From NCBI RefSeq assembly GCF_001709345.1, contig NZ_MDTQ01000001.1:2927980-2991979 (forward strand): a stretch of 64,000 nt of DNA, written 5' to 3'. The position numbers and the translations under genes were made by a program. Shown piece after piece: positions 9,537-52,121 of this stretch. The notes under the pieces were generated by a model. The model saw only the letters and a program-made list of their open reading frames with translations, searched no databases and was not told the DNA's origin. How positions within the stretch are numbered: the first letter of the stretch is position 1; each line of letters starts with the position of its first letter. This stretch comes from Terasakiispira papahanaumokuakeensis. GTDB lineage: Bacteria; Pseudomonadota; Gammaproteobacteria; Pseudomonadales; Halomonadaceae.

Positions 9537-11351
9537 GTGATCGAAAATCTTCGCAACATCGCAATTATTGCCCACGTTGACCACGGTAAGACGACCCTGG
9601 TAGATAAGCTGTTACAACAATCCGGTACGCTGGATCGCCGTAACGCCGATGCTGAGCGCATCATGGATTCTAATGACCAGGAAAAAGAACGCGGCATCAC
9701 GATTCTGGCCAAGAACACCGCGATTAACTGGCATGATTACCGCATCAACATTATTGATACGCCTGGACACGCTGACTTCGGTGGTGAAGTTGAGCGCGTA
9801 ATGTCCATGGTCGACTCCGTATTATTGCTGGTTGACGCGATGGACGGCCCCATGCCGCAGACTCGCTTCGTCACCCAGAAGGCTTTTGAACGCGGCTTAA
9901 AGCCGATTGTCGTGGTCAACAAAGTCGACCGCCCAGGCTCTCGTCCCGACTGGGTCATCGACCAGATCTTTGATCTGTTTGATAACCTGGGCGCTTCAGA
10001 AGAGCAGCTGGACTTCCCGATTATCTACGCCTCTGCACTCAACGGCGTTGCTGGGGATGACCCTGAAAATCTGGCGGATGATATGACACCGCTGTTCCAG
10101 GCTATTGTTGACCTGGTACCGCCGCCCTCGGTTGATCCTGACGCACCATTCCAAATGCAGATTTCTGCACTGGATTACTCCAGCTATGTCGGCGTTATCG
10201 GGGTTGGCCGCATTACACGCGGTAAAGCACGCCCCAATCAGCAGGTCGTCATTGAAGATCGACACGGCAACCAGCGTAAAGGCAAGATCGGTCAGGTCAT
10301 GACCTACCTAGGTCTGGAAAGGGGCGAAACCCCTGAAGGCGCCGATGCAGGGGACATCATCTGCATCACCGGGATTGATCCGCTGAGCATCTCCGATACC
10401 CTGTGTGACCCGTCTAATGTCGAAGCACTCCCGGCACTGACGGTTGACGAGCCGACCGTCACCATGACCTTCCAAGTTAACGACTCGCCCTTTGCTGGTC
10501 AGGATGGCAAATACGTAACCAGCCGCAACATTAAAGAGCGTCTGGAGCGAGAACTGGTTCACAACGTGGCTCTGCGTGTTGAAGAAACAGAAAGCCCGGA
10601 AAAATTCCGTGTTTCTGGCCGCGGCGAGCTGCACCTCTCAGTGCTGATTGAAAGCATGCGTCGAGAAGGCTACGAGCTCGGTGTTTCACGTCCTGAAGTC
10701 ATCATCCGTGAAATCGATGGCGTCAAACAAGAGCCCTATGAAGAACTGATTATTGATGTTGAAGAACAGCATCAAGGCTCAGTCATGGAAGAGTTGGGTA
10801 AACGCAAAGCGCGTATGACCAACATGAACCCGGATGGCAAAGGCCGAGTACGTCTGGACTTTATCATTCCATCACGCGGCTTGATTGGCTTCCGTGGCCT
10901 GTTCATGACCTTAACTTCAGGCTCTGGGATTCTGACCAGTATTTTCGACCACTATGGTCCGCTGGCCGAAGGCGCCATGGAACACCGTAACAACGGCGTT
11001 CTGGTGTCAATGGCGAAAGGCAAGGTTTTGGCTTATGCCCTGACGACCCTGCAGGATCGCGGCAAGCTGTTCGTTGAACCGGGTGTTGAAGTCTATGAAG
11101 GCATGGTCGTGGGGATTAACTCACGCGCCAACGATATGACCGTCAACCCGACCAAGGCGAAGAAGCTCGATAACATGCGTGCTTCAGGTAACGATGAAAC
11201 CATCCAACTGGTGCCACCGGTTCGCTTTACACTAGAACAGTCACTGGAATTCATTGACGATGACGAACTGGTCGAAGTCACGCCTCACTTTATCCGTATC
11301 CGGAAAAAGTACCTGACCGAAAACGAACGCAAGCGCGCCTCTAAAGGCTAA
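9537..11351 (+). CDS. typA: Translational GTPase TypA/BipA
   Basis: Ribosome-associated GTPase that aids 50S assembly and stress growth. 604 residues, as in the family. G1 is AHVDHGKTT, the switch I threonine lies in the ERGITI segment, G3 is DTPGH and G4 is NKVD. Domain II, EF-G-like domains III and V, and the C-terminal TypA-specific domain follow. Translation starts at GTG 9537 ([11 protein letters not shown]) with a GGGAGA site upstream. It is transcribed alone and ends in a strong terminator. Confidence 0.97.
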
Positions 11352-37668: not shown

Positions 37669-39482
<1,814 letters not shown>

Positions 39483-39498
39483 TCATACCCAAACGCAT

Positions 39499-41010
39499 TC
39501 AGTGAGAAATCACGCCAGCTTCAGGTTCACCCTCAGGGATACTGGTAACAACGTCGGCCTGACGAGATGCGGCGATAAAGTAGATCAAGGCACCAGAAAA
39601 GGCGCCCGTAAACCAGCCGTAGTCATAAAACCAGGTCATGGTGTTCAAGGTGACCGACATCAACGTCAGCAACACGGGAATGAAAAAGGCGAGAAAACCT
39701 GCTTTATTGACCAGCGGATAACGCCCGCCCGTGTGGTAGAGAGACACGAGATCTAACCGTTGGCGTTTGATCAGGAAATAATCCACCACCATGATCCCGG
39801 CAATAGGACCCAATAGACTTGAATAGCCCAGCAGCCAATTAGAGTACATGCTTTCGACGCTGACATCAGAGACCACCCAGCCGAGTTTTTTCAATAATTC
39901 CCAGCCCATCAGCACAATGCCAATCACACCGGTCAGCAGCACCCCTCGCGTATTATTAATATACTTGGGTGCAATATTCTGGAAGTCATTCGTAGGCGAT
40001 ACGACATTGGCGGCTGTATTGGTCGATAAAGTCGCAATAATGATCAGTATCATGGCCACGATCACCCAGACGGGGCTATCAATCCGGCCAATCAAAGTCA
40101 CAGGATCAGAGATGGTTTCGCCGACCAAGGTGGCTGAGGCCGCGGTCATCACAACCCCCAAGGCCGAGAAAAAGAACATGGTCAAAGGCAAGCCAATGAT
40201 CTGGCCGACCACTTGATCACGCTGAGAACGAGCAAAGCGGCTAAAATCAGGGATATTCAGCGATAAAGTCGCCCAAAACCCAACCATCGCCGTTAAACCC
40301 GCAAAGAAATAACTCAAAAAACCAGACCCGGCCGGACGACTGGCAGGTGTACTTAACACTTCAGTTAACGAAACCTTACCGCCAGCCCACACCATTAACG
40401 CCACACCCACCGCTAACAGAAGAGGAGCCGCTAAGGTTTCCAGCCACTTGATAGACTCAGCACCGCGCAGCACGACGCCAATATTCAACGCCCAGAAAAT
40501 AAAGAAGCCAAAGACTTCACCGACAGAGCCTAAAGAAGCCCATGAGCTCGATAACTCAGACAACAATAAATGAACTGCTAACCCCCCGAACATCGTCTGA
40601 ATACCAAACCAGCCACAGGCCACCAGGCCCCGAATCAAACAAGGCACATTAGAACCTAATATGCCAAAAGAGGACCTGAGCAAGACGGGAAAAGGCAGCC
40701 CGTACTTAGTCCCAGGAAAAGCATTCAGTGTCAGCGGGACCAAGACGATAATATTGGCTAATAGAATCGTGAATAGCGCCTCCACCACTGACAGGCCGAA
40801 ATAGGCCGTTAAAACACCCCCCAAGGTATAAGTGGGGACACAGATCGCCATCCCCACCCACAAGGCCGCAATATTGCCTGCGGACCAAGTACGCTCTTTC
40901 ACCTGAGTGGGCGCTAAATCATCGTTATAGTGAATGCTATGGGTCAGATCATCCCCGACCTGTAGTTCATAAAACTCATCGACTTTCACTGCGGTGCTGT
41001 GCTTTGTCAT
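39499..41010 (-). CDS. NCS1-family nucleobase/hydantoin:cation symporter
   Basis: 503-residue inner-membrane transporter with about twelve hydrophobic helices. NCS1 hallmarks are the N-terminal WSAGNIAALWVGMAICVPTYTLGG, LLRSSFGILGSNVPCLIRGLVACGWFGIQTMFGG and STNTAANVVSPTNDFQNIAPKYI. Family members carry uracil, allantoin or benzylhydantoin (Mhp1). Position between the N-carbamoyl amidohydrolase and dihydropyrimidinase suggests pyrimidine or hydantoin uptake. Confidence 0.94.
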   Translation of the reverse strand: MTKHSTAVKVDEFYELQVGDDLTHSIHYNDDLAPTQVKERTWSAGNIAALWVGMAICVPTYTLGGVLTAYFGLSVVEALFTILLANIIVLVPLTLNAFPGTKYGLPFPVLLRSSFGILGSNVPCLIRGLVACGWFGIQTMFGGLAVHLLLSELSSSWASLGSVGEVFGFFIFWALNIGVVLRGAESIKWLETLAAPLLLAVGVALMVWAGGKVSLTEVLSTPASRPAGSGFLSYFFAGLTAMVGFWATLSLNIPDFSRFARSQRDQVVGQIIGLPLTMFFFSALGVVMTAASATLVGETISDPVTLIGRIDSPVWVIVAMILIIIATLSTNTAANVVSPTNDFQNIAPKYINNTRGVLLTGVIGIVLMGWELLKKLGWVVSDVSVESMYSNWLLGYSSLLGPIAGIMVVDYFLIKRQRLDLVSLYHTGGRYPLVNKAGFLAFFIPVLLTLMSVTLNTMTWFYDYGWFTGAFSGALIYFIAASRQADVVTSIPEGEPEAGVISH

Positions 41011-41083: not shown

Positions 41084-42349
41084 TCAGCACTGTGATTGAG
41101 CAATTCGAGCACTCGCTCGCAACATGGCGTGTAACAGGACATTAGCCCCTGCTTCACACTCTTCAGGCTTGGTATATTCAGCTTCGTTGTGGCTAATGCC
41201 CTTGAGGCAAGGCGTGAAGACCATACCGGTCGGCACCAAATCAGACATGTAACAAGCGTCATGTCCGGCCCCGGCATAGATATCCATATGCGAGTAGCCC
41301 AGTTGTTCGGTGGCCGCTTTGACGTCATCGGAGGCTTTAAACTCAACCGGGGCAAAGTACCAATAGTTATCCACCTCAATCACCAACTGACGTGCACTGG
41401 CCAGGACATCACAAAAAGCCACCAGCTCATCATGCATCTGTTGCAGCACGTCAGCATCGGGATTGCGTAAATCCACACTCATCTGAATTTCACCAGGAAT
41501 CACGTTGCGTGAGTTCGGATGAATATTCATAAAACCCACCGTGCCCAACCCATTAGCGTGGCGATGGGCAATGCGCTCGACTTCGGTGGTAATCAAAGCA
41601 GAGACCACCATGGTGTCTTGACGTAAATGCATCGGGGTCGTGCCTGAATGCTGTGAACGCCCTTTAATGGTCAGGTTGTACCAACGAATACCCTGCCCCA
41701 TGCGCACAACACCAATCTCCTTATCTTCATCCTCCAGAATGGGGCCCTGCTCAATATGCACCTCAAAGAAAGCGCCCATATGACGACTGCCAGGCACTTC
41801 ATCGCCTAGATAACCAATTTTCGCCAACTCATCTTTGAGCCTTAAACCATCGATATCGGTTTTGTTTAACTCGGTCTCCAGGTCAAACCGCCCGGCATAG
41901 ACCCCTGACCCCTGCATCGCTGGCTGAAAGCGTGACCCTTCTTCATTCGTCCAAACCGAAATCTCAATCGGTGTCGGTGTCTCAATCTGGTGCTCATGTA
42001 AAGTGCGTAAGACTTCAACACCGGCTAATACGCCAAAAACCCCATCAAACTTGCCTCCGGTAGGCTGTGTATCCAAATGAGAGCCTGCGCCCACCGCAGG
42101 TAAGTGGTTATCTCGGCCCGGCCGACGGGCAAACATATTCCCCATCTGATCGACACTGATGGTGCAGCCCGCAGCCTTACACCAGGACACAAATAAATCA
42201 CGGGCTTGCCCGTCTAATGCGGTCGCGGCCAATCGATTACATCCCCCTTTAGGCGTGCCACCGATATCACCCATTTCCATGAGTGAATCCCATAAGCGGG
42301 TTCCATTCACTCTCAGATCAGATGTTTTTTCTACATGACTATCACTCAT
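41084..42349 (-). CDS. M20-family N-carbamoyl amidohydrolase (beta-ureidopropionase / HyuC type)
   Basis: Hydrolyses N-carbamoyl-beta-alanine to beta-alanine, CO2 and ammonia in the reductive pyrimidine pathway (PydC role), or N-carbamoyl-amino acids. 421 residues. Metal sites are GSHLDTQPTGGKFDGVFGVLAG and NEEGSRF; substrate side HIEQGPILE and the late HNEAEYTKPEE. Start at 42349 (MSDSHVEKTS) with GAGGGGG in front; an ATG at 42370 overlaps that site. First gene of the operon, with a RutR-like box 134 bp upstream. Confidence 0.93.
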   Translation of the reverse strand: MSDSHVEKTSDLRVNGTRLWDSLMEMGDIGGTPKGGCNRLAATALDGQARDLFVSWCKAAGCTISVDQMGNMFARRPGRDNHLPAVGAGSHLDTQPTGGKFDGVFGVLAGVEVLRTLHEHQIETPTPIEISVWTNEEGSRFQPAMQGSGVYAGRFDLETELNKTDIDGLRLKDELAKIGYLGDEVPGSRHMGAFFEVHIEQGPILEDEDKEIGVVRMGQGIRWYNLTIKGRSQHSGTTPMHLRQDTMVVSALITTEVERIAHRHANGLGTVGFMNIHPNSRNVIPGEIQMSVDLRNPDADVLQQMHDELVAFCDVLASARQLVIEVDNYWYFAPVEFKASDDVKAATEQLGYSHMDIYAGAGHDACYMSDLVPTGMVFTPCLKGISHNEAEYTKPEECEAGANVLLHAMLRASARIAQSQC

Positions 42350-42454
42350 CACAACCCCCTCACTCATCAATCTTTATGTTCAACATCAATCACCAACTTA
42401 AAAACATTTCCTACTCAAACTTCTAAAAAACAATCTTTTTTAAAACTTCAAAAA

Positions 42455-42498
42455 TTCATTCACCAGCTCATTTACCCGTTCATTTACCAACTGGTCAA
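42455..42498. promoter_or_regulatory. RutR-like operator with adjoining 12-bp direct repeats
   Basis: The dyad TTTACCA-AC-TGGTCAA occupies 42483-42498, nearly the RutR consensus TTGACCA-NN-TGGTCAA as I know it. On the minus strand its right half TTGACC could be the -35 of the catabolic operon. Three near repeats GGTAAATGAACG / GGTAAATGAGCT / GGTGAATGAATT continue downstream. The rest of 42371-42924 is AT-rich with no gene; near 42795-42845 it has short GCCCATAG-type repeats. Confidence 0.65.
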
Positions 42499-42924
42499 AA
42501 TCAAAACATTAAAAAAAGCGACGATTCAACATCACTCAAAAATGATCAAACCTGGTGCCATAGAATAAAAAAATGCACCAAAACAATCATAAAATAGAGG
42601 CAACCAACATCTCATCTATGGCATATCCAATAACCAAGCATATCTTGTGCCAAAAGAGCAGAGACCGCGGTGGATCACTGACCTGATATCAAGGCTCAAA
42701 CGACTCATGAATAAGCTTTTAGAGGAAAGTCCACAGAGACACTTGGCGGATGATGACGGTGTCATCCCGATGAATACTGAATGAAAGCGTTAGACAGAAG
42801 GTTATGCCCATAGCGCCATGCCCATAGATAGCGCCATGGCCATAGAAAGGACATTCAGCTCAAGCTGTAGATATGGAATAATGAGGGTTCAGAGTCAGTG
42901 ATGACTCATCATTCAGAGGTTTGC

Positions 42925-43566
42925 ATGCGCGCAACAGGCCCCCAGGCTCACTCCACCCAACGACAAGTCATTGAGCAAAGAATTCTTAGAGCAGCAGAAG
43001 CTGCTTTTGCCCATAACGGCTTTAAGGGCACATCCATGGAGTCAGTGGCTGAAGCAGCCGGGCTGTCGAAACAAAATATGCTGTATTACTTTCGCTCTAA
43101 GCGGTTACTTTACCGGCGTGTACTGGAAAACATCCTGGATCAATGGGTTGAAAAAATGGTGTTCACAGAGAACCCTGACAGTCAACCGACAGAAGTGATT
43201 GCGCAATATATCCGAGGAAAATTAGAACTTTCACGAGACTATCCCGAAGGTTCACGTGTCTTTGCCCATGAGATCATCAACGGCGCGCCCATGCTCAAGG
43301 ACTACTTGAGCAAACGCCTCAAACCTCAGTTTGAACATGACCTCAAACTGGTGAAGCGTTGGCAACAAGCCGGACTGATTGATGAGGTTGATCCCGCGCA
43401 CTTGTTCTTCACCATTTGGGCGGCGACCCAGACTTACGCCGATTTTTCCAGCCAAATCCAACTGCTATTAGGCCATGAACCATTAGCTGACGAAGGTTTT
43501 GAACAAGCCTGCAGCACCCTTACCCACATCGTTCTCAAAGGGCTTGGCCTCTCGCCTGCCGCTTGA
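42925..43566 (+). CDS. RutR-like TetR-family regulator
   Basis: 213-residue repressor. N-terminal HTH (about 20-65; MESVAEAAGLSKQNMLYYFRSK) and a RutR-type ligand domain: IRGKLELSRDYPEGSRVF and HLFFTIWAATQTYADFSSQI align closely with E. coli RutR (KLEVSRDYPQASRLF and HLIFMIWASTQHYADF). RutR senses uracil/thymine. It lies between the pyrimidine-type catabolic operon and the F420 operon, with RutR-like boxes before both. Start at ATG 42925 (GAGG just upstream); in-frame starts at 42898 and 42901 also exist. Confidence 0.9.
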   Translation: MRATGPQAHSTQRQVIEQRILRAAEAAFAHNGFKGTSMESVAEAAGLSKQNMLYYFRSKRLLYRRVLENILDQWVEKMVFTENPDSQPTEVIAQYIRGKLELSRDYPEGSRVFAHEIINGAPMLKDYLSKRLKPQFEHDLKLVKRWQQAGLIDEVDPAHLFFTIWAATQTYADFSSQIQLLLGHEPLADEGFEQACSTLTHIVLKGLGLSPAA

Positions 43567-43877: not shown

Positions 43878-43893
43878 TTTACCATTAGGTAAA
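43878..43893. promoter_or_regulatory. RutR-like box 2, upstream of the F420 operon
   Basis: Perfect palindrome TTTACC-ATTA-GGTAAA. The 3' AT-rich leader 43567-44008 otherwise has no gene. Confidence 0.6.
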
Positions 43894-43911: not shown

Positions 43912-43927
43912 TTGACCAAACGGTAAA
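43912..43927. promoter_or_regulatory. RutR-like box 3, upstream of the F420 operon
   Basis: TTGACC-AAAC-GGTAAA, 34 bp (about three turns) after box 2. A further half-site GGTCAA is at 43939-43944. They lie 65-130 bp before the cofG start. Confidence 0.6.
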
Positions 43928-44008
43928 AAACAAAATAACGGTCAATTGAGCACCAACAAAAACTCCAAAAAGAAAAGACAAGAACAAGCATGTGCCCGGA
44001 GTAATCTC

Positions 44009-45202
44009 ATGATTTCACGAAAAGAAGCGATCGCACTGGGTGGTATCCAAGGAAAAGAACTGGATGATCTTTGTGAATATGCCAGTCAGGTCCGAGATCA
44101 AACCTGGGGGAAGCAGCTCACCTATTCACGTAAAGTCTTTATCCCACTAACGAATATGTGCCGTGATCGCTGTGGCTACTGCACTTTTGTGAAAGGTCCA
44201 CAGTCTCCAGAAGCTCAGGTGATGACTGAGACCGCAGTGATGCATCGCGTTCAACAAGGAGAAGCGAGTGGCTGTCGTGAAGCCTTGTTCAGCTTGGGCG
44301 AGCGGCCAGAAAAGCGTTACCCACAATTGCAGCACTTTCTTGAACATCACGGCTTCCGTCGCCTGATTGACTATCTGGCGCACTGCGCTGAACAAGTATT
44401 GGCAAAGAGTACACTGCTCCCTCACTTGAACCCTGGAACTTTAACCCGCAACGAGCTGCGCCAACTTAAACCTGTCTCAGCCAGCATGGGGATGATGCTA
44501 GAAAGCGCCAGTCAACGATTATTACGCCCAGGACAAGCCCACCACCGGTGCCCAGACAAAGTGCCGAATGTCCGCCTTAAAACACTGGATGATGCGGGCC
44601 GACTGGCCATTCCATTTACCACAGGCCTGCTCATTGGCATTGGGGAAACCTGGCAAGAGCGGATCGAGGCGCTGTTACTGATTAATGCGCTCCATCAACA
44701 GCATGGCCACATTCAGGAAGTCATTATCCAGAACTTCCGAGCCAAGCCTGGCACGGCCATGGCCCATTGTCATGAGCCTGATCTGGATGACATGCGGCGT
44801 ACCTTAGCGGTTGCACGCTTATTACTTTCACCACGTATCAGCCTTCAGGCACCGCCGAATCTTCATGCGGATTATCCCGCCTATATCCGTAGCGGGCTCA
44901 ATGACTGGGGCGGTATCTCTCCCGTCACACAAGACCATATCAATCCGGAAAGGGCCTGGCCGCAAATCGATCATCTCGCGACAGCCTGCCAAGCTCAAGG
45001 CTACACACTGAAACAACGTCTGACGGTTTACCCCGATTACTTAAAGCGACCAGCCTTCATCCAGCCCCTAGGGCCAAAACTGATTGCCATGAGTAGCCAG
45101 TTAAACGCGACTGATGCGCTGAATCCGATTGATCAACTGACCCGTGGCGATGGACTCAGCCACGATCCTCATATCTCACATCCAATGGCCTGCACGGCTT
45201 AA
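44009..45202 (+). CDS. cofG: 7,8-didemethyl-8-hydroxy-5-deazariboflavin (FO) synthase subunit CofG
   Basis: Radical SAM half of FO synthase, the step that forms the deazaflavin of coenzyme F420. 397 residues from ATG 44009 (GGAG seven bases upstream; the frame also opens at TTG 43946). The cluster cysteines are C51, C55 and C58 in CRDRCGYC. Later hallmarks are NPGTLTRNELRQLKPVSASMGMMLES, QNFRAKPGTAM and NDWGGISPVTQDHINPE. It is separate from CofH, as in archaea and many Proteobacteria/cyanobacteria, unlike the fused FbiC of Actinobacteria. First gene of the F420 operon. Confidence 0.95.
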   Translation: MISRKEAIALGGIQGKELDDLCEYASQVRDQTWGKQLTYSRKVFIPLTNMCRDRCGYCTFVKGPQSPEAQVMTETAVMHRVQQGEASGCREALFSLGERPEKRYPQLQHFLEHHGFRRLIDYLAHCAEQVLAKSTLLPHLNPGTLTRNELRQLKPVSASMGMMLESASQRLLRPGQAHHRCPDKVPNVRLKTLDDAGRLAIPFTTGLLIGIGETWQERIEALLLINALHQQHGHIQEVIIQNFRAKPGTAMAHCHEPDLDDMRRTLAVARLLLSPRISLQAPPNLHADYPAYIRSGLNDWGGISPVTQDHINPERAWPQIDHLATACQAQGYTLKQRLTVYPDYLKRPAFIQPLGPKLIAMSSQLNATDALNPIDQLTRGDGLSHDPHISHPMACTA

Positions 45203-45294
45203 CCCACACAAGCACAACGCCACGAGCTCACGCAATCAGTGGTATTGCTCGCCGAAAGCCTGGCTGACCGACACCTAGAGACAGGAGCCTGATG

Positions 45295-46527
45295 ATGAAA
45301 CCGTCTAATCATCTCACTGATCATGACCTGACCCCACAGACCGATTCCAATAGCAAGGTCACGCCTCAGATCGCCGCTATTTTGCAACGTGCGCGACAAG
45401 GCATTGCGCCAAGCCGTGCCGAAGGTGAGCAACTCTTCATGGCTGAAGGTGCTGATTATTGGGCTTTGCTGACAGCCGCGGATGATGTCCGTCAACAACG
45501 CTGTGGTGAAAAAGCCAGCTTTGTCATTACACGCAATATCAACTTTACCAATGTGTGTTACATGGGGTGTCGCTTCTGTAATTTCAGCGTCAATCGCGAA
45601 GACCCCACGGCGGAGTTCTTATCGGTTGAAGAGGTGGCAGACCGCGCTCAAGAAGCCTGGGAACGAGGCGCAACAGAAGTCTGTGTGCAAGGCGGTTTAC
45701 ATCCCGATATCAACCCGAATGATTACCGCAATCTCCTTCGCGCCATTAAACAGCGTTTGCCTGACCTGCATATTCATGCCTTTTCACCCTTTGAGATCTG
45801 GTATGGGGCGAAGAAGGCACGCATGAGTGCTGAAGACTTTCTGCGTGACCTAAAGGCCTGCGGATTAGGCTCCATGCCTGGCACCGCAGCGGAAATTCTC
45901 GATGTCGAAGTGCGCCAACAACTGACCAAAAATAAATTAACCACCGATGAGTGGGTCAAGATCATCAAAGCGGCTCATCAAGTCGGTATTCGCACAACAG
46001 CGACCATCATGTATGGCCATGTGGATGCCCCTCGACATTGGGCCGAGCACCTCGACTTACTCCGCCAAATACAACAGGAAACAGGGGGATTCACTGAATT
46101 TGTGCCACTGGGTTTTATTCACTACAAAACCGCGCTGTATAACGACAATCCAGACAAGGTCCGTACCGGCCCGACCCGTGCCGAGCACTTCAAGATGCAT
46201 GCGATCGCGCGGCTGATGCTGCAAGGTCAGATCGATAACATTCAGGCCAGTTGGGTCAAAATGGGGCCAGAAACCGCCGCTCAAATGCTACGTGCGGGGG
46301 CTAATGACCTTGGCGGCACGCTCATGAACGAAAGCATCTCCACCGCAGCCGGCGGGGAGCACGGTCAAGAAGTCATGCCAGAAGATATGGTGCGCAACAT
46401 TCAACGGGCTGGTTTAACGCCGGTCCAGCGCACAACACTCTACCAAGTGAAGCAACAATTTGAGCCCACCGCTCATGACAGCCTCTATGACCTACATCGC
46501 CGTATCCGTACGGAGGCCGTCGCATGA
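45295..46527 (+). CDS. cofH: 5-amino-6-ribitylaminouracil--tyrosine 4-hydroxyphenyl transferase, FO synthase subunit CofH
   Basis: Radical SAM enzyme that joins a tyrosine fragment to 5-amino-6-ribitylaminouracil, a riboflavin-pathway intermediate, before CofG closes the ring. 410 residues; cluster cysteines C88, C92 and C95 in CYMGCRFC. Further signatures: EVCVQGGLHPDINPNDY, GSMPGTAAEILDVEVR, and GANDLGGTLMNESISTAAGG. Start at 45295 or the ATG three bases before; AGGAG sits 4-7 bases upstream. Its stop overlaps the cofD start as ATGA. Confidence 0.96.
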   Translation: MKPSNHLTDHDLTPQTDSNSKVTPQIAAILQRARQGIAPSRAEGEQLFMAEGADYWALLTAADDVRQQRCGEKASFVITRNINFTNVCYMGCRFCNFSVNREDPTAEFLSVEEVADRAQEAWERGATEVCVQGGLHPDINPNDYRNLLRAIKQRLPDLHIHAFSPFEIWYGAKKARMSAEDFLRDLKACGLGSMPGTAAEILDVEVRQQLTKNKLTTDEWVKIIKAAHQVGIRTTATIMYGHVDAPRHWAEHLDLLRQIQQETGGFTEFVPLGFIHYKTALYNDNPDKVRTGPTRAEHFKMHAIARLMLQGQIDNIQASWVKMGPETAAQMLRAGANDLGGTLMNESISTAAGGEHGQEVMPEDMVRNIQRAGLTPVQRTTLYQVKQQFEPTAHDSLYDLHRRIRTEAVA

Positions 46528-47549
46528 CTCAACGTTTGGTATTGATCGCGGGCGGCGTCGGCGGGGCCAAAGCCGCCGAAGGATTAGCTCAGGCCGCCGC
46601 TGAACGAGGCGATCACCTTCAAATCATTGGTAATGTCGCCGACGATGACACCTTCTATGGGCTCCAGGTGTCCCCCGATATTGACACGCTGCTGTATAGC
46701 TTAAGTCAAAGAGTAAATCGCTCTCAGGGCTGGGGACTGGCCGGTGATAGCAACCGACTACAGCAGCAATTGGCCCTGCTCGGTGCTTCTCACTGGATGA
46801 AGCTGGGCGACCTAGACCTCGCCACTCACCTTTATCGCACTCAGCGCCAACAACAAGGCGACCGGACCAGTGATATTACACACTCACTGGCGGTGAGTTT
46901 AGGGGTCACTACCCCGGTGCTCCTCCCCACCGATGACGATTTACGCACCTGGATTAAAACATCGGAAGGATGGTTACGGTTTCAAGAATTCTTCGTCCGT
47001 GAACGCTGCCAACCCGCGGTTGAAGCCATTGAGATTCGTGGGCTGGAGACAGCCCAAGCGACACCTGAAGCCATCGCCGCACTGGAGCAGGCTGATGTGA
47101 TTTTACTCGCCCCCAGTAACCCTTTAGTCAGTATTGACCCCATCCTGAAAGTGCCAGGAATCCAACAGGCCATCACTCGCAGTGCGGCGCGCTGTATCGC
47201 AATATCCCCTTTAATTGGTGGACAACCGATCAAAGGCCCATTGGACAAGATGCTTAAAGCCCTGCATTTACCCTGCAACAACATCGGGGTAGCCCAACAT
47301 TATCAGCAGACTTATCCAGGGCTACTGAATGCATTGGTCATTGACCACCAAGACCACATTGATCAGCAAGCCATACAGGCACAAGGGATTGTCACCTTCA
47401 TCACCGATACGTTAATGACTTGCCAAGCCGATAAAGTGCATCTGATGCAACAGTGCCTAAGGTGGATGGATCTCTTAACCACAACACCGCGCTCAATAAC
47501 CTGCTCTACACCGCCATACGCTTCACAAACGGGAGCCGCGCCATGTTGA
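46524..47549 (+). CDS. cofD: 2-phospho-L-lactate transferase CofD (FbiA)
   Basis: Transfers a phospho-C3-acid from its guanylyl donor to FO, forming F420-0 or dehydro-F420-0. 341 residues, with the N-terminal AGGVGGAKAAEGLAQ nucleotide loop, NVADDDTFYGLQVSPDIDTLLY, and APSNPLVSIDPIL with IGGQPIKGPLDKML. The C-terminal about 30 residues extend past the family core and are hydrophilic. Overlaps cofH by four bases and cofC by seven. Confidence 0.95.
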   Translation: MTQRLVLIAGGVGGAKAAEGLAQAAAERGDHLQIIGNVADDDTFYGLQVSPDIDTLLYSLSQRVNRSQGWGLAGDSNRLQQQLALLGASHWMKLGDLDLATHLYRTQRQQQGDRTSDITHSLAVSLGVTTPVLLPTDDDLRTWIKTSEGWLRFQEFFVRERCQPAVEAIEIRGLETAQATPEAIAALEQADVILLAPSNPLVSIDPILKVPGIQQAITRSAARCIAISPLIGGQPIKGPLDKMLKALHLPCNNIGVAQHYQQTYPGLLNALVIDHQDHIDQQAIQAQGIVTFITDTLMTCQADKVHLMQQCLRWMDLLTTTPRSITCSTPPYASQTGAAPC

Positions 47550-48256
47550 TCAATTCGAGACCGTCATCTCCCCCTTACAAACTGAATATCGTCATTCCAG
47601 TCAAACAGCTGAATAAAGCGAAGCAACGCCTGAGCTCACGCTATACACCGTATCAACGTCAAACCCTGGCCGACAGTCTATTACGCAATACGCTCAGCTT
47701 TTTTCAGGAATACTGTCCCCACTGGCATCGTTTGGTCGTGACCGAGTCACCTGAGGCCATGGCTCTAGCCGATCAGTATGGGGCCACAACGCTTTATCGG
47801 CGTGATCAGGACGGGCTCAACAGTGCCTTGAGTATCGCGAGTCAATGGAGCCTTGACCATGGATTTAGCCACCAGCTCATCGTACCGACCGATATCGGCC
47901 ACTGGGTCGTCGATGAAGTCAAAGCATTATTAGACTCAATCGACACACTAGCACAACAGCATCCCCGTCGCGCTTGCGCGGTGTTAGCTCAGGCGCATGA
48001 TGGTGGCACCAATGCCCTACTGATGAGCCCGCCAACGGCACTCACACCTCAGTTTGGACCGAACTCCGCATGGCATCACCAGCAACAAGCCACGGCCCGA
48101 CAGATGGCCTTTAAATCGCTATATCTGACATCTCTGAGCCAAGATCTGGATACGCCCGAAGACTTTACGCAAATCCATTGGCATCAGTGGCCGCATCAGC
48201 CTCAATGGCTCAGCCAGCAGCAACCTTCGGTCATGCAGGAGCAACGTTATGGCTAA
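47543..48256 (+). CDS. cofC: 2-phospho-L-lactate guanylyltransferase CofC (or 3PG/PEP-type)
   Basis: Activates a phosphorylated C3 acid with GTP for CofD. 237 residues from ATG 47543 (GGGAG seven bases upstream, overlapping the cofD stop). A GTA-type nucleotidyl fold: IVIPVKQLNKAKQRLS at the start, then VTESPEAMALADQYG, IVPTDIGHWVVDEVK, and LAQAHDGGTNALLMSPPTAL. The middle DIGHW segment carries the metal-site Asp. Whether it prefers phospholactate, PEP or 3-phosphoglycerate (the last is known in a Paraburkholderia CofC) cannot be read from sequence. Confidence 0.92.
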   Translation: MLINSRPSSPPYKLNIVIPVKQLNKAKQRLSSRYTPYQRQTLADSLLRNTLSFFQEYCPHWHRLVVTESPEAMALADQYGATTLYRRDQDGLNSALSIASQWSLDHGFSHQLIVPTDIGHWVVDEVKALLDSIDTLAQQHPRRACAVLAQAHDGGTNALLMSPPTALTPQFGPNSAWHHQQQATARQMAFKSLYLTSLSQDLDTPEDFTQIHWHQWPHQPQWLSQQQPSVMQEQRYG

Positions 48257-49025
48257 CCCGTTAACGGTGTTCCGGCTGGAAGGGCTACCTGACTTCCGCC
48301 CTGGCGACGATTTAGCCAATGCGATCCTGACACAGCTGGATGCGCAGCAAGCCACGCTTGAAGCGGGCGATATTCTCGTCATTGCCCACAAAGTGGTCTC
48401 CAAAACCGAAGGCGACATCATCGATATGGCGACCATTACACCCAGCGATGAAGCGCTAAAGCTGGCTCATCAGGTGAATAAGGACCCACGCAAAGTCGAG
48501 GTCATTCTCAATCAATCTCGACGACTTGTACGAGTGGTGCCACCGCGCGACAAATCGACTGAAGGCTTACTGATTGCCGAGCATCGACTGGGGTTTATCT
48601 GTGCCAATGCCGCCGTTGATGAATCCAACGCCGACCAGCCCAACCAACTCATCACATTACCCCAAGACCCGGATGCCAGTGCGCAACGACTCTGCCAAAC
48701 CTTACAAAACGCCACCGGAGTCCGCTTAGGTATTGTCATCAGCGACACCTTCGGGCGCCCATGGCGTATGGGACAAGTCAATGTCGCCATAGGTCTCGCC
48801 CAAGTGCCCGCCCAACTGGATTTGAGAGGTCAGCACGACGGTTGGGGGCAGACATTACGGGTCACCACACCGGCTTTTGCCGATGAACTGGCCGCAGCCT
48901 CTGGCCTGCTCATGGGTAAAGCAGACAAAAGCCCGGTCATTATTTTCCGTGGCCTCGACTGGCCTGTTAGCGACAGTCAGGCCAGCACTCTTGTTAGACC
49001 CCCACATGAGGATCTGTTCAGATGA
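48249..49025 (+). CDS. cofE: F420-0:gamma-glutamyl ligase CofE
   Basis: Adds gamma-linked glutamates to F420-0 with GTP. 258 residues: [20 protein letters not shown] at the start, [18 protein letters not shown], the GTP/metal stretch [22 protein letters not shown], and VIIFRGLDW near the end. No FMN-binding FbiB-type C-terminal domain is attached, so if a dehydro-F420-0 route is used its reductase must be elsewhere. Overlaps cofC by eight bases and npdG by four. Confidence 0.95.
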
Positions 49026-49693
49026 CGATTGCCATTATCGGCGGCACCGGCCCCCAGGGCAGCGGTTTAGCTTTGCGTTTTGCTCGGGCAGGCATTCCTG
49101 TCGTGATCGGTTCACGCGATGGAGAACGCGCAGCCCAACATGCACACACCTTACGCCAACAACTCCCCGATGACGCTGCGGCGTTAACCGGCACCGATAA
49201 CCTGGATGCTGCACAACAGGCGGATCAGCATGTCATTTTAGCGGTGCCCTACAGCGCCCATGCGGCGACGCTGGATGCCCTCAAACCGACACTGACGGGC
49301 AAAATTCTGATCGACATCGTCGTGCCCTTGGCCAAAGGCAACCCGAAGACGGTCGAGATGCCCCCAGAAGGCTCCGCAACAGAAGCGGCACAAGCCTTAT
49401 TAGGAGATGCAATCCCGGTTGTCGGTGCTTTACACAATGTCTCCGCCGTGACCCTCAATGCGCTGGATCATGCCATCAACTGCGACATTTTAGTCTGCGG
49501 TAATGATTTAGACGCGAAGCAAAGCGTCATGACCTTACTGTCAGCATTACAAGTGGATTGCTATAACGCCGGCCCCGCTGACAATGCCCGCTGCATTGAA
49601 GCCATCACCCCAATTCTAATCCGTTTAAACATCTCGAAAGCCGTCCCTTTCAGCCATGCCGGCATTCGTATTTGCCCACCGGATAAGCCGTAA
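49022..49693 (+). CDS. npdG: F420H2:NADP+ oxidoreductase (NADPH-dependent F420 reductase)
   Basis: Passes hydride between NADPH and F420; in this setting probably makes F420H2 from NADPH. 223 residues with a Rossmann N-terminus [22 protein letters not shown] and the NADP phosphate-binding SRDGERA, then [30 protein letters not shown] and [13 protein letters not shown]. The gene overlaps cofE by ATGA and precedes the luciferase-like oxidoreductase, so synthesis, reduction and use of F420 are in one operon. Confidence 0.93.
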
Positions 49694-49779
49694 TTCATAC
49701 ATGACGACCCCAAACCTCAAGACAGCGCCATGTCAAGAAGTGTCATTTCAAGAGAACAACAAAGAAGAGGATGATCACA

Positions 49780-50784
49780 ATGGAATTCGGTATCACATTC
49801 AAAGGCTTTGTCAGCCCCAACCGTGCCCGTAACTTGGTTCGCCAGGCTGAAGAGGCCGGATTCACCTACTGCTGGTTTTATGATTCGCACATTCTTTGGC
49901 GAGAGTCTTTCGTCGCCATGGCCATGTGCATGGAACATACCCGCAAAATGCGATTTGGCCCTTGTGTCACCAACCCGAATATTCGTGACTGGTCACTGGC
50001 AGCCAGCCTCTACGGCTCTTTGGCCTTACAAAGTGAAGGACGTTTTGATATTGGCTTGGGCCGTGGCGACTCTTCAATGCGCGTGATGGGTAAAAAGCCC
50101 GCCCCACTGGCGCGAGTAGCGGAATTCACCGAAAAAGTGAAAGCCATGGTCCGTGGCGAAGAAGTGACTTATGGCGAATGTGAATCCCCAGTCAAACTGC
50201 CTTGGGCCAACGGTTATGAACTGCCTGTTTGGATTGGGGCCTACGGCCCAAAAGCACTGGCCACAGCAGGCACTGTCGGCGATGGTGTGATTCTGCAAAT
50301 AGGCGATCCCAGCTTGGTCCAATGGTTCAAAGATCAATGTATTCAAGCCGGTGAGACAAGCGGTCGAGATATGAGTCAGTTCAAAGTTCAAGCCGCCGCC
50401 CCCGCCTACTTTGGTGATATGGCGTATTGCATTGAGAAAACCAAATGGTTCCCCGCCATGGTCGGCAACCATGTCGCAGATATCGTCGAAAAATATGGTA
50501 GTGAATCAGGATTGGTGCCTCGCAGCCTCACCGACTATATCGAGAAACGCCGAGGCTACGACTATGCCAAGCATGGTCAGAGTGATAACCCTTATCTGGA
50601 TTTTATTACAGAGGATATTGTGAAAAGTTTTTGTGTATTAGGTGAAATCGACGACCATATTCATAAATTGAAACAACTCGAAGAAGCCGGAACGACACAA
50701 TTCAATATCTACCTAGATAACGGCGATGAAGAACGCATCATCGCGGAGTATGGCAATCACATCATTCCTAAGTTTGCCCAATAG
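49780..50784 (+). CDS. F420-dependent luciferase-like (LLM) oxidoreductase
   Basis: 334-residue TIM-barrel enzyme of the bacterial luciferase-like superfamily, F420 branch. Start at ATG 49780, nine bases after AGAGG. Features: MEFGITFKGFVSPNRARNLVRQAEEAGF, YDSHILWRE, a barrel strand with the GLGRGDSS cofactor loop (as in methylene-tetrahydromethanopterin reductase), and WIGAYGPKALATAGTVGDGVIL. It may belong to the group I remember as the CPS_4043 family (not checked). Substrate unproven. As last gene of the F420 operon facing a pyrimidine catabolic operon, a pyrimidine or hydantoin ring-reduction role is my inference. Confidence 0.88.
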   Translation: MEFGITFKGFVSPNRARNLVRQAEEAGFTYCWFYDSHILWRESFVAMAMCMEHTRKMRFGPCVTNPNIRDWSLAASLYGSLALQSEGRFDIGLGRGDSSMRVMGKKPAPLARVAEFTEKVKAMVRGEEVTYGECESPVKLPWANGYELPVWIGAYGPKALATAGTVGDGVILQIGDPSLVQWFKDQCIQAGETSGRDMSQFKVQAAAPAYFGDMAYCIEKTKWFPAMVGNHVADIVEKYGSESGLVPRSLTDYIEKRRGYDYAKHGQSDNPYLDFITEDIVKSFCVLGEIDDHIHKLKQLEEAGTTQFNIYLDNGDEERIIAEYGNHIIPKFAQ

Positions 50785-50869: not shown

Positions 50870-50927
50870 GGGTTTATACCACACGGGTTTATACCACACT
50901 GGTTGACACCACACGGGGTTACGCCAC
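50870..50927. repeat. Four tandem copies of a 15-bp unit
   Basis: Units: GGGTTTATACCACAC (50870-50884 and 50885-50899), TGGTTGACACCACAC (50900-50914) and a degenerate GGGGTTACGCCAC (50915-50927). The last unit runs into the 3' end of the alcohol dehydrogenase gene. On the minus strand the array would code a five-residue repeat (GINPC-like), but no convincing gene uses it. Confidence 0.85.
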
Positions 50928-52121
50928 GACACCAGGCGTTCGTGCTTCCCATACCTTGCGATATAACGCCACCATTTCGTCAATCGTGGGCTGACGCGGA
51001 TTATTCGATGGGGACCCTGAAGCTTGTGCTTGTTCGGCCATCACGGTTAAATGCGACATGAAATCGGCCTCGGCAATCCCAAACTCAGCCGGAGTAGGCA
51101 CCTGAAGCTCTTCATTTAAAGCCGTCAACTCAGCGAGTAAGCGCTGGTTGGCCATATCGATGTCTTCTCCAGCTTCAGCCACGCCCATCGCCTTAGCACA
51201 ATCAGCATAGCGTTCCGCCGCTGACGGAATAGAGAATTCAGTCACTGTAGGCAATAACATGGCATTGGATAAACCATGAGGCACATGAAAAAAGGCCCCA
51301 ATCGGGCGGCTCATGCCATGCACCAAGGCGACTGAGGCATTTGAGAAGGCGACCCCAGCTAAGTGAGCGCCCAACATCATGGCCTCACGAGCGGCACGAT
51401 CCTCTGGGTGATGATAGGCCGTACGCAGATTAGGAGCGATCAAGCGCATCGCCGCCAGCGCCTGCTGATCACTATATAGATTGGCCTTACGACTGACATA
51501 AGCTTCAATCGCATGCGTAAGCGCATCAATCCCAGTATCTGCCGTGACTCGAGGCGGCACACTCATCGTGAGATCAAAATCCACCAATGCAGCCACGGGC
51601 ATAAACGCGGTGCCCGCACACAACATCTTTTCATCGGTTTGATCATCGGTAATGATCGTAAACCGCGTCACCTCAGACCCCGTTCCGGCTGTCGTCGGAA
51701 TCGCAATCAGCGGTAAACCCGCCTCACTGACATCTCGGGGCACTTTGTAATCACGCATCTGACCACCGAAACTCCCCAACACGCCTATCGCTTTGGCAGA
51801 ATCAATCGGACTCCCCCCGCCCAGCGCAATCAGACAGTCGAACTCACCACTGGACAGCCCCTGGCGCAACATCTCCACCCCCGCCATGATGGAGCTTTCA
51901 GTCGGTTCCGGCTGAGTATCAGCGAATACCGCATACTCGATACCCGCCGCCTCAAGGGGCTCGGTTAGACGGGCCACATACGCTAATTCCACCATCATCC
52001 GGTCGGTCACAATCAACGGACGATGGCAGCCCAGAGAGGCCAGCATGGGCGCAATCTGTGCAATCGCACCGGCACCAAGTTCAACTAAACGGGGTAAAAC
52101 AAGACGATGTGATGTCGGCAT
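50919..52121 (-). CDS. Iron-containing (group III) alcohol dehydrogenase
   Basis: 400 residues. NAD(P)-binding GGGSPIDSAKAIG, the substrate-side PTTAGTGSEVT, and metal ligands in DTGIDALTHAIEAYVS and HGLSNAMLLPTV. Typical group III enzymes interconvert primary alcohols and aldehydes or hydroxy/semialdehyde acids. Next to a pathway that ends in beta-alanine and malonate semialdehyde, reduction of malonate semialdehyde to 3-hydroxypropionate is a reasonable guess but unproven. A perfect 25-nt palindrome lies about 120 bp upstream. Confidence 0.93.
   Translation of the reverse strand: MPTSHRLVLPRLVELGAGAIAQIAPMLASLGCHRPLIVTDRMMVELAYVARLTEPLEAAGIEYAVFADTQPEPTESSIMAGVEMLRQGLSSGEFDCLIALGGGSPIDSAKAIGVLGSFGGQMRDYKVPRDVSEAGLPLIAIPTTAGTGSEVTRFTIITDDQTDEKMLCAGTAFMPVAALVDFDLTMSVPPRVTADTGIDALTHAIEAYVSRKANLYSDQQALAAMRLIAPNLRTAYHHPEDRAAREAMMLGAHLAGVAFSNASVALVHGMSRPIGAFFHVPHGLSNAMLLPTVTEFSIPSAAERYADCAKAMGVAEAGEDIDMANQRLLAELTALNEELQVPTPAEFGIAEADFMSHLTVMAEQAQASGSPSNNPRQPTIDEMVALYRKVWEARTPGVVA

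Follow-up and report, generated by a model that had tools for sequence, protein, structure and literature searches.

A luciferase-like oxidoreductase encoded at the end of an F420 operon is a candidate F420H2-dependent uracil reductase in Terasakiispira papahanaumokuakeensis

Known dihydropyrimidine dehydrogenases, such as PreTA/PydA, carry flavin mononucleotide (FMN) and Fe-S clusters, as well as flavin adenine dinucleotide except in the ferredoxin form, and known uracil reductases draw their electrons from NADPH, NADH or ferredoxin (excerpts of PMC7332683). RutA, a member of the luciferase-like (LLM) superfamily, acts on uracil with FMN and O2. Its dioxygen-pocket residues are Thr105 and Asn134 (excerpts of PMC10005588). 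Two putative F420-linked enzymes have been associated with uracil-like rings: a luciferase-family protein of Chloroflexota uric acid clusters, proposed to reduce the ring of yanthine before its hydrolytic opening (excerpts of PMC12507026), and NpsU/SSGG-03002, a putative F420/FMN oxidoreductase tied by genetics and nuclear magnetic resonance to C5-C6 reduction of a uracil moiety (excerpts of PMC10714638). The former has a purine substrate and the latter belongs to uridyl peptide antibiotic tailoring; both are likened to the protein considered here by description only. As of a 2021 review, no F420H2-dependent reductase had been experimentally investigated in bacteria outside the Actinobacteria, and why the Proteobacteria-type new producers make F420 was left unanswered; no word beginning ‘uracil’ was counted in that review (PMC8498797). 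Here we describe a gene for a methanogen-like LLM oxidoreductase in a 64,000-nucleotide stretch of DNA from the marine bacterium Terasakiispira papahanaumokuakeensis (contig NZ_MDTQ01000001.1, positions 2,927,980 to 2,991,979; hereafter the window, meaning the whole stretch analysed). It is the last gene of a complete F420 operon, cofGHDCE-FNO, all on the plus strand, and stands near genes for pyrimidine use.

We infer that this LLM protein is very probably an F420H2-dependent uracil/thymine reductase, a non-homologous stand-in for PreTA/PydA. The computed basis is its family, its fold, its gene context, its co-occurrence with partner genes, the lack of overlap with PreA in the genome samples, the palindromes near the cluster and the ligand pocket of a neighbouring repressor. 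The genes concerned are as follows.

49780-50784, plus strand: LLM oxidoreductase, candidate F420H2-dependent uracil reductase (TIGR03842; predicted model)
49022-49693, plus strand: npdG/FNO, NADPH:F420 oxidoreductase (FNO), proposed F420H2 supplier (TIGR01915, 202.8 bits, cut-off 149.8)
48249-49025, plus strand: cofE, F420-0:L-glutamate ligase (TIGR01916, 261.5 bits, cut-off 180.65)
47453-48256 (longest open reading frame), plus strand: cofC, 2-phospho-L-lactate guanylyltransferase (TIGR03552, 128.1 bits, cut-off 105)
46524-47549, plus strand: cofD, 2-phospho-L-lactate transferase (TIGR01819, 264.1 bits, cut-off 257.45)
45292-46527, plus strand: cofH, FO synthase subunit (TIGR03551, 506.2 bits, cut-off 374.1)
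43946-45202, plus strand: cofG, FO synthase subunit (TIGR03550, 451.9 bits, cut-off 213.35)
42898-43566, plus strand: RutR-like TetR repressor with a YcdC/RutR-type C-terminal domain (PF08362, 162.8 bits)
41084-42370, minus strand: M20 carbamoyl-amidohydrolase, proposed beta-ureidopropionase (TIGR01879, 422.4 bits, cut-off 204; NF006769, 595.3 bits, cut-off 452)
39499-41010, minus strand: NCS1-family nucleobase transporter (TIGR00800, 314.2 bits, below the cut-off of 353.1)
38007-39452, minus strand: dihydropyrimidinase (TIGR02033, 565.7 bits, cut-off 393.25)

The LLM gene lies in an uninterrupted frame whose longest form, 49771-50784, encodes 337 amino acids. ATG 49780, which gives a product of 334 amino acids, is a better start than ATG 49771, because the purine-rich GAAGAGG at 49764-49770 lies 9 nt ahead of the former and abuts the latter, and because many relatives align from MEFGI/MDFGI onwards. 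The product is a full-length member of the NCBIfam family TIGR03842 (F420_CPS_4043), scoring 516.7 bits (cut-off 295.45) over profile positions 1-329 of 329, and its sole Pfam match is Bac_luciferase (186.5 bits). TIGR03612 (RutA), to which E. coli RutA itself scores 726.4 bits, is not among the 19 NCBIfam families listed for the protein at E 0.001, and Pfam and NCBIfam profile searches gave no match to NF006183 or DHO_dh (PreA/PydA).

By sequence and fold the protein is closest to the Mer/F420 branch. A PDB sequence search reaches the methylene-tetrahydromethanopterin reductase Mer at E 9e-27; the 10 PDB sequences found at E 1e-3 do not include RutA. An AlphaFold2 model built from 40 sequences (mean pLDDT 92.8, pTM 0.92) was aligned with VIA to 1000 chains. 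Ranks 1-15 within the best 50 entries are all F420-dependent enzymes, with Z scores of 35.0-35.9 for Mer, 32.9 for Adf and 28.7-31.4 for FGD-type enzymes. FMN monooxygenases enter at rank 16 (Z ≤28.3), and RutA follows at rank 37 (Z 25.6, root-mean-square deviation 2.7 over 281), about 10 Z units under Mer; Foldseek ranks 1-19 are likewise F420 enzymes. Mer (PDB 1z69, 8qpl) is thus the closest solved relative (1z69, Z 35.2, 28% identity over 311), although the window protein scores under both Mer equivalog cut-offs (126.8 bits, cut-off 276; 116.8 bits, cut-off 348.7) and stands in a context of pyrimidine use. In a 29-row tree, in which several outgroup branches are very long and unplaceable and only the TIGR03842 groupings were used, the TIGR03842 rows form one group (98/94), with relatives from Streptomyces and genome G105, apart from RutA and SsuD; an MsnO8 row of length 10 joins an archaeal group there with weak support. 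Among the cofactor-side residues that do not vary across 14 TIGR03842 rows and recur in the Mer rows, but not in RutA, SsuD or MsnO8, are V66, N68, D100 and G159. Positions specific to the 14 rows include W226, residues 230-237 (MVGNHVAD), Y263-D264-Y265 and H268, and the blocks MVGNHVAD and YDYxxHG are not seen in the Mer rows. In a low-identity alignment, the dioxygen-pocket residues T105 and N134 of RutA fall on C65 and G95 and are not kept. The sequence-only reading had put the protein on the Mer/F420 branch rather than with RutA, a placement that the searches, the fold comparison and the tree bear out. Its stated reason, the GLGRGDSS loop (residues 95-102 in the numbering of the 337-residue form), fares worse: the MsnO8-type LLM of the same genome has the similar loop GLGRAPGS, so the motif alone does not discriminate between cofactors and was dropped as an F420 marker. 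Because likeness of fold alone is no proof of F420 use, the proposal that the protein uses F420 as cofactor, in reduction with F420H2 as in Mer, draws on fold, family and accompanying F420 genes together.

The gene neighbourhood is conserved well beyond this genome. Counts were made, with set score thresholds, in the best 80 of 266 relatives in genome contigs (75-90% identity), with flanks reaching at most 10 kb or the contig edge. FNO and cofE each occur in 75 of these 80 loci, cofG and the RutR-like gene in 69 each, M20 in 63, NCS1 in 43, dihydropyrimidinase in 26, an AptA-type aminotransferase in 18, methylmalonate-semialdehyde dehydrogenase (MMSDH) in 17 and a nitrilase-type amidase in 6. 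PreA and PreT are found in none (0/80), and E. coli RutA, RutB, RutC and RutD have no match at E 1e-10. At least one of the RutR-like, dihydropyrimidinase, M20, nitrilase-type, MMSDH and AptA genes is present in 78/80 loci; in the other two (L019, L052) the upstream side ends at a contig end. FNO precedes the LLM gene on the same strand in 75 of the 80, with a gap of 25-324 nt (median 63) between alignment ends. Named hosts include Marinomonas, Marinobacterium, Oceanospirillum, Halomonas, Vibrio, Alteromonas, Colwellia, Halopseudomonas, Trinickia, Leisingera and Ruegeria. Two loci with no dihydropyrimidinase in the flank (L029, L038) encode an AptA-type omega-aminotransferase (683 and 701 bits, cut-off 500) beside the regulator and next to an aldehyde dehydrogenase-like frame; the AptA-type genes, and MMSDH in its 17 loci, fit use of beta-alanine or beta-aminoisobutyrate.

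Against the link between the LLM and pyrimidine genes being a mere by-product of the link with F420 genes, three loci pair them without cof genes: L087 (M20, NCS1 and MMSDH; 664 bits, cut-off 448.5), whose genome, G133, carries a fused CofGH on another contig; L073 (19.9 kb; dihydropyrimidinase, RutR-like, M20 and NCS1); and the short L062 (5.3 kb; dihydropyrimidinase, RutR-like and M20, no NCS1). On a Streptomyces plasmid, in one locus only, a 42% relative is encoded directly after a dihydropyrimidinase (554 bits), and genes for a class III aminotransferase and a nitrilase-family amidase are close by. A Leisingera plasmid has its cof-LLM operon facing genes for transhydrogenase, aminotransferase, Zn-hydrolase and dihydropyrimidinase. 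A search for LLM relatives on plasmids gave 13 records at 1e-40 and 43 at 1e-6; the 13-kb cluster of the window matched 7 plasmid records, and coverage is 2% in each of the 5 that were listed. Among viral contigs, 14 stretches matched a pattern and none encodes an LLM relative.

Presence across genomes tells the same story at larger scale. Among 194 genomes of the order to which the window belongs, searched for TIGR03842, cofG, PreA and dihydropyrimidinase, over-cut-off matches were found in 10, 62, 13 and 21, respectively, and no genome had both TIGR03842 and PreA. cofG accompanies 10/10 LLM genomes vs 52/184 others (Fisher 6.5e-6) and dihydropyrimidinase 9/10 vs 12/184 (Fisher 3e-9), values that ignore relatedness; five of the ten LLM genomes belong to one genus. 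For this reason, that genus was searched alone (48 genomes). Here the cofG and dihydropyrimidinase sets are identical (25 genomes), LLM is present in 24 of these and in 0/23 others, and PreA is in none; two matches are incomplete: that of the G588 LLM, at a contig end, covers profile positions 27-329, and that of the G591 dihydropyrimidinase covers 120-454. In a phylum sample, the family was detected at E 1e-60 in 2/398 genomes, both already in the order sample, and outside these groups it is rare and patchy.

LLM and PreA exchange places. The 21 dihydropyrimidinase genomes of the order comprise nine with LLM, eight with PreA, none with both and four with neither; the chance of zero overlap, again with relatedness ignored, is 0.0024. 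Families f1 (that of the window) and f37 each hold both LLM and PreA genomes. Of the 13 over-cut-off PreA loci in the order sample, eight have dihydropyrimidinase beside PreT-PreA, three of these with M20 and a RutR-like gene and five with a nitrilase-type amidase; NCS1 is present in 4/13, and four (L102, L103, L105, L106) have none of these partner genes. PreTA/PydA and the LLM would thus share a reaction and a set of partner genes, but they are unrelated protein families, and the electrons of the LLM would arrive through F420. In the genome of the window (G000) a search for PreA elsewhere gave one DHO_dh match only, in a 386-amino-acid frame, and no over-cut-off PreA; no RutA was found. The genome encodes two LLM proteins, and the second, of MsnO8 type (436.6 bits, cut-off 166.95), was ruled out as a further uracil enzyme. 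Because neither PreA nor RutA was found, uracil reduction is a step without an enzyme unless the LLM performs it. The sequence-only reading had tied the gene to pyrimidine catabolism through its operon position and noted the F420:NADPH reductase directly upstream as the likely supplier of F420H2. The clusters, the exchange with PreTA and the FNO-LLM order uphold both points, with the direction of electron flow read from gene order, and the earlier case was undersold: the protein fills the exact missing step.

The presumed regulator would connect the two sides of the cluster. The M20, NCS1 and dihydropyrimidinase genes run divergently from the RutR-like and cof-LLM side. E. coli RutR binds a palindrome of ~16 bp, is released by uracil and contacts it through W77, Y97, W167, Q171 and Q179 (excerpts of PMC10891134). 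The corresponding residues of the window repressor, W83, Y104, W174, Q178 and Q186, match, and each of the five positions is kept in 67-69 of 70 regulator rows from the loci. Intergenic regions of the window first suggested the pattern TTKACC-N4-GGTMAA, which was tested afterwards. The window has three matches, each of them at this cluster, vs 0.01 expected:

43912-43927, plus strand: RutR-type palindrome TTGACCAAACGGTAAA, just upstream of cofG
43878-43893, plus strand: RutR-type palindrome TTTACCATTAGGTAAA, upstream of cofG
42483-42498, plus strand: RutR-type palindrome TTTACCAACTGGTCAA, between the divergent M20 and rutR-like genes

Across the 80 LLM loci there are 102 sites in 63 loci, vs 1, 0 and 0 in three Markov-simulated sets. 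A scan of 90 loci gave 103 palindromes in 64 loci, 98 of them upstream of a cof or pyrimidine gene, two scored inside the start of cofG and three downstream of LLM without a scored gene. The strict palindrome was not found in L082, L083, L084, L085, L086 or L087, and the E. coli rutR-rutA region fits the pattern only with two mismatches. The repressor would bind at these palindromes and uracil would act as inducer, as the pocket residues and site positions suggest. A simple promoter and terminator scan returned fewer sites than in shuffles. In three Alteromonas loci (L029, L030, L058) a palindrome lies at 11287, after the LLM gene; that of L029 is ~116 bp before an open reading frame of 771 amino acids, TonB receptor-like by eye, which may belong to the regulon and serve nucleobase uptake.

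Several observations weigh against a uracil reductase. The RutR-like protein falls under both RutR equivalog cut-offs (TIGR03613, 190.4 bits, cut-off 368; second model, 169.1 bits, cut-off 230), the strict palindrome is missing from 17/80 LLM loci, and none occurs in the 13 PreTA loci L094-L106. Glu6 of Mer, which we take to be its catalytic residue (PDB 8qq8 carries the title of an E6Q mutant), corresponds to Thr9, so the proton donor is not given by likeness to Mer. A cof-FNO-LLM operon on a Paracoccus alcaliphilus plasmid (L083:6587-24996) has no pyrimidine genes within 12 kb, and G105 has over-cut-off LLM and cofG with no over-cut-off dihydropyrimidinase. Because LLM and PreA are both missing from four of the 21 genomes with dihydropyrimidinase, dihydropyrimidinase alone is no proof of the pathway; conversely, 5/13 PreA genomes lack it. 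The 25th genome of the single-genus set, G581, has no LLM anywhere in its assembly by the TIGR03842 search; its contig begins inside cofE, so that the edge cuts away FNO, the place of the LLM gene and the greater part of cofE. SSGG-03002, another proposed uracil-moiety reductase, gave no product in vitro (excerpts of PMC10714638).

Against this background, four other explanations were considered. The protein could be an F420H2-dependent reductase of a different cyclic ureide or nucleobase, such as a purine-derived ring, hydantoin or thymine only, within a similar reduce-then-hydrolyse pathway. The best-scoring subfamily model of the M20 enzyme is named allantoate amidohydrolase, the transporter has sub-cut-off matches to allantoin permease models, and an F420 LLM has been proposed as yanthine reductase in Chloroflexota. 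We nevertheless regard it as unlikely: the cyclic amidohydrolase passes the dihydropyrimidinase cut-off and scores under that for allantoinase (214.8 vs 357.85), the LLM swaps with PreTA in otherwise like clusters, the repressor retains the uracil contacts of RutR, and omega-aminotransferase or MMSDH adjoins some relatives. An FMN-dependent monooxygenase that cleaves uracil with O2, as RutA does, would share the fold superfamily and a RutR-like regulator, but it is very improbable, and its sequence, fold, pocket residues and neighbouring genes led us to reject this reading: the distance to RutA, the lost pocket residues and the lack of RutA-RutD matches have been given above, and F420 genes accompany the LLM in 10/10 genomes of the order.

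Relatives of the protein, Fgd and Adf, reduce F420, and F420 reactions are often reversible; the LLM might therefore run oxidatively and feed F420H2 to the cell from a pathway intermediate. With FNO already preceding it in 75/80 loci, and with a reduction as the pathway step lacking an enzyme, this has scarcely any probability. The chance that the LLM merely travels with the F420 operon and does something unrelated is negligible: the Paracoccus plasmid would suit it, but the tight genus-level co-occurrence with dihydropyrimidinase would not, nor would L073, L087 and the short L062, which keep the LLM with pyrimidine genes though without cof genes. We therefore retain F420H2-dependent uracil reduction, with thymine probably also a substrate.

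In the pathway so envisaged, uracil imported by the NCS1 transporter would free the RutR-like repressor from the operators that precede cofG and the M20-NCS1-dihydropyrimidinase operon. F420 synthesis would then be induced along with FNO, LLM and the hydrolases. FNO would reduce F420 with NADPH, and the LLM would hand the C5 hydride of F420H2 on to uracil C6 while uracil C5 is protonated, to give dihydrouracil; the reaction direction and the positions of hydride and proton are those that we consider most plausible. Dihydropyrimidinase would then open the dihydrouracil ring to N-carbamoyl-beta-alanine, and the M20 enzyme would cleave this to NH3, CO2 and beta-alanine. If this is true, the family, known until now by a model number, gains a function and reductive pyrimidine breakdown gains a new enzyme for its initial reaction, a cofactor pathway is apparently regulated by the substrate of the reaction that it serves, and the cassette gives, for one group, a specific answer to the role of F420 in Proteobacteria, namely uracil catabolism. 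The LLM might also offer uracil reduction that needs no Fe-S clusters, with a possible bearing on how fluoropyrimidines are degraded. No proposal of an F420-dependent uracil reductase in pyrimidine catabolism appears in the titles, opening abstract lines and excerpts of the open-licence literature matches listed, although a subscription paper or preprint could exist, and no paper was found under the name TIGR03842 in the open-licence PMC literature.

A broader generalization is modestly favoured: that F420H2 with an LLM constitutes a further electron-donor class for uracil reduction, carried by a patchy cassette that brings the whole F420 pathway, probably by horizontal transfer, and that is controlled by uracil through a RutR-type repressor, making F420 on demand for one reaction; and that related cassettes, such as that of the Variovorax plasmid described below, serve other N-heterocycles, ‘F420 LLM plus cyclic amidohydrolase’ being a general module. 

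Other clusters were noted alongside. On a Variovorax sp. PBL-E5 plasmid from linuron-contaminated soil (L114:2348-10828), another Mer-like LLM, whose TIGR03842 score of 202.7 bits is under the cut-off, shares a cof cluster with genes for FNO, RidA, a carbon-nitrogen hydrolase and an amidohydrolase resembling dihydropyrimidinase or allantoinase; by its gene content this cluster may be a parallel F420 ring-reduction cassette. On a Croceicoccus marinus plasmid (L117:966-4528) an LLM lies between a 3-keto-5-aminohexanoate cleavage protein and CofH, possibly another F420 catabolic cassette. An archaeal LLM on a Haloterrigena plasmid (L111:2253-7002) directly follows hydantoinase/oxoprolinase and hydantoinase B genes. 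G105 (L086:5927-12844) encodes a 42% relative and MMSDH (684 bits) between genes that by eye resemble an Rnf operon. A second type of cof cluster, in G180 (L091:28-8471), comprises a CofG/CofH-like frame, cofC, FNO and a 27% LLM that scores about as high with the Mer model (161.8 bits) as with TIGR03842 (159 bits), under the cut-off in each case. The Paracoccus operon of L083 is followed by ABC transporter and formate dehydrogenase genes.

Within the F420 operon of the window, the longest frame of cofC overlaps the end of cofD and TIGR03552 matches residues 46-245; the true start is probably later than 47453. The F420H2_quin_red family is absent from this genome and also from all 14 control genomes; the search for further F420 users in the genome yielded none but was too limited to count as evidence. 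Convergent with the LLM gene is one for an iron-containing alcohol dehydrogenase (50919-52121, minus strand), a 65% relative of which is encoded close to the cassettes of L013 (Marinomonas aquiplantarum) and of L090 (genome G065).

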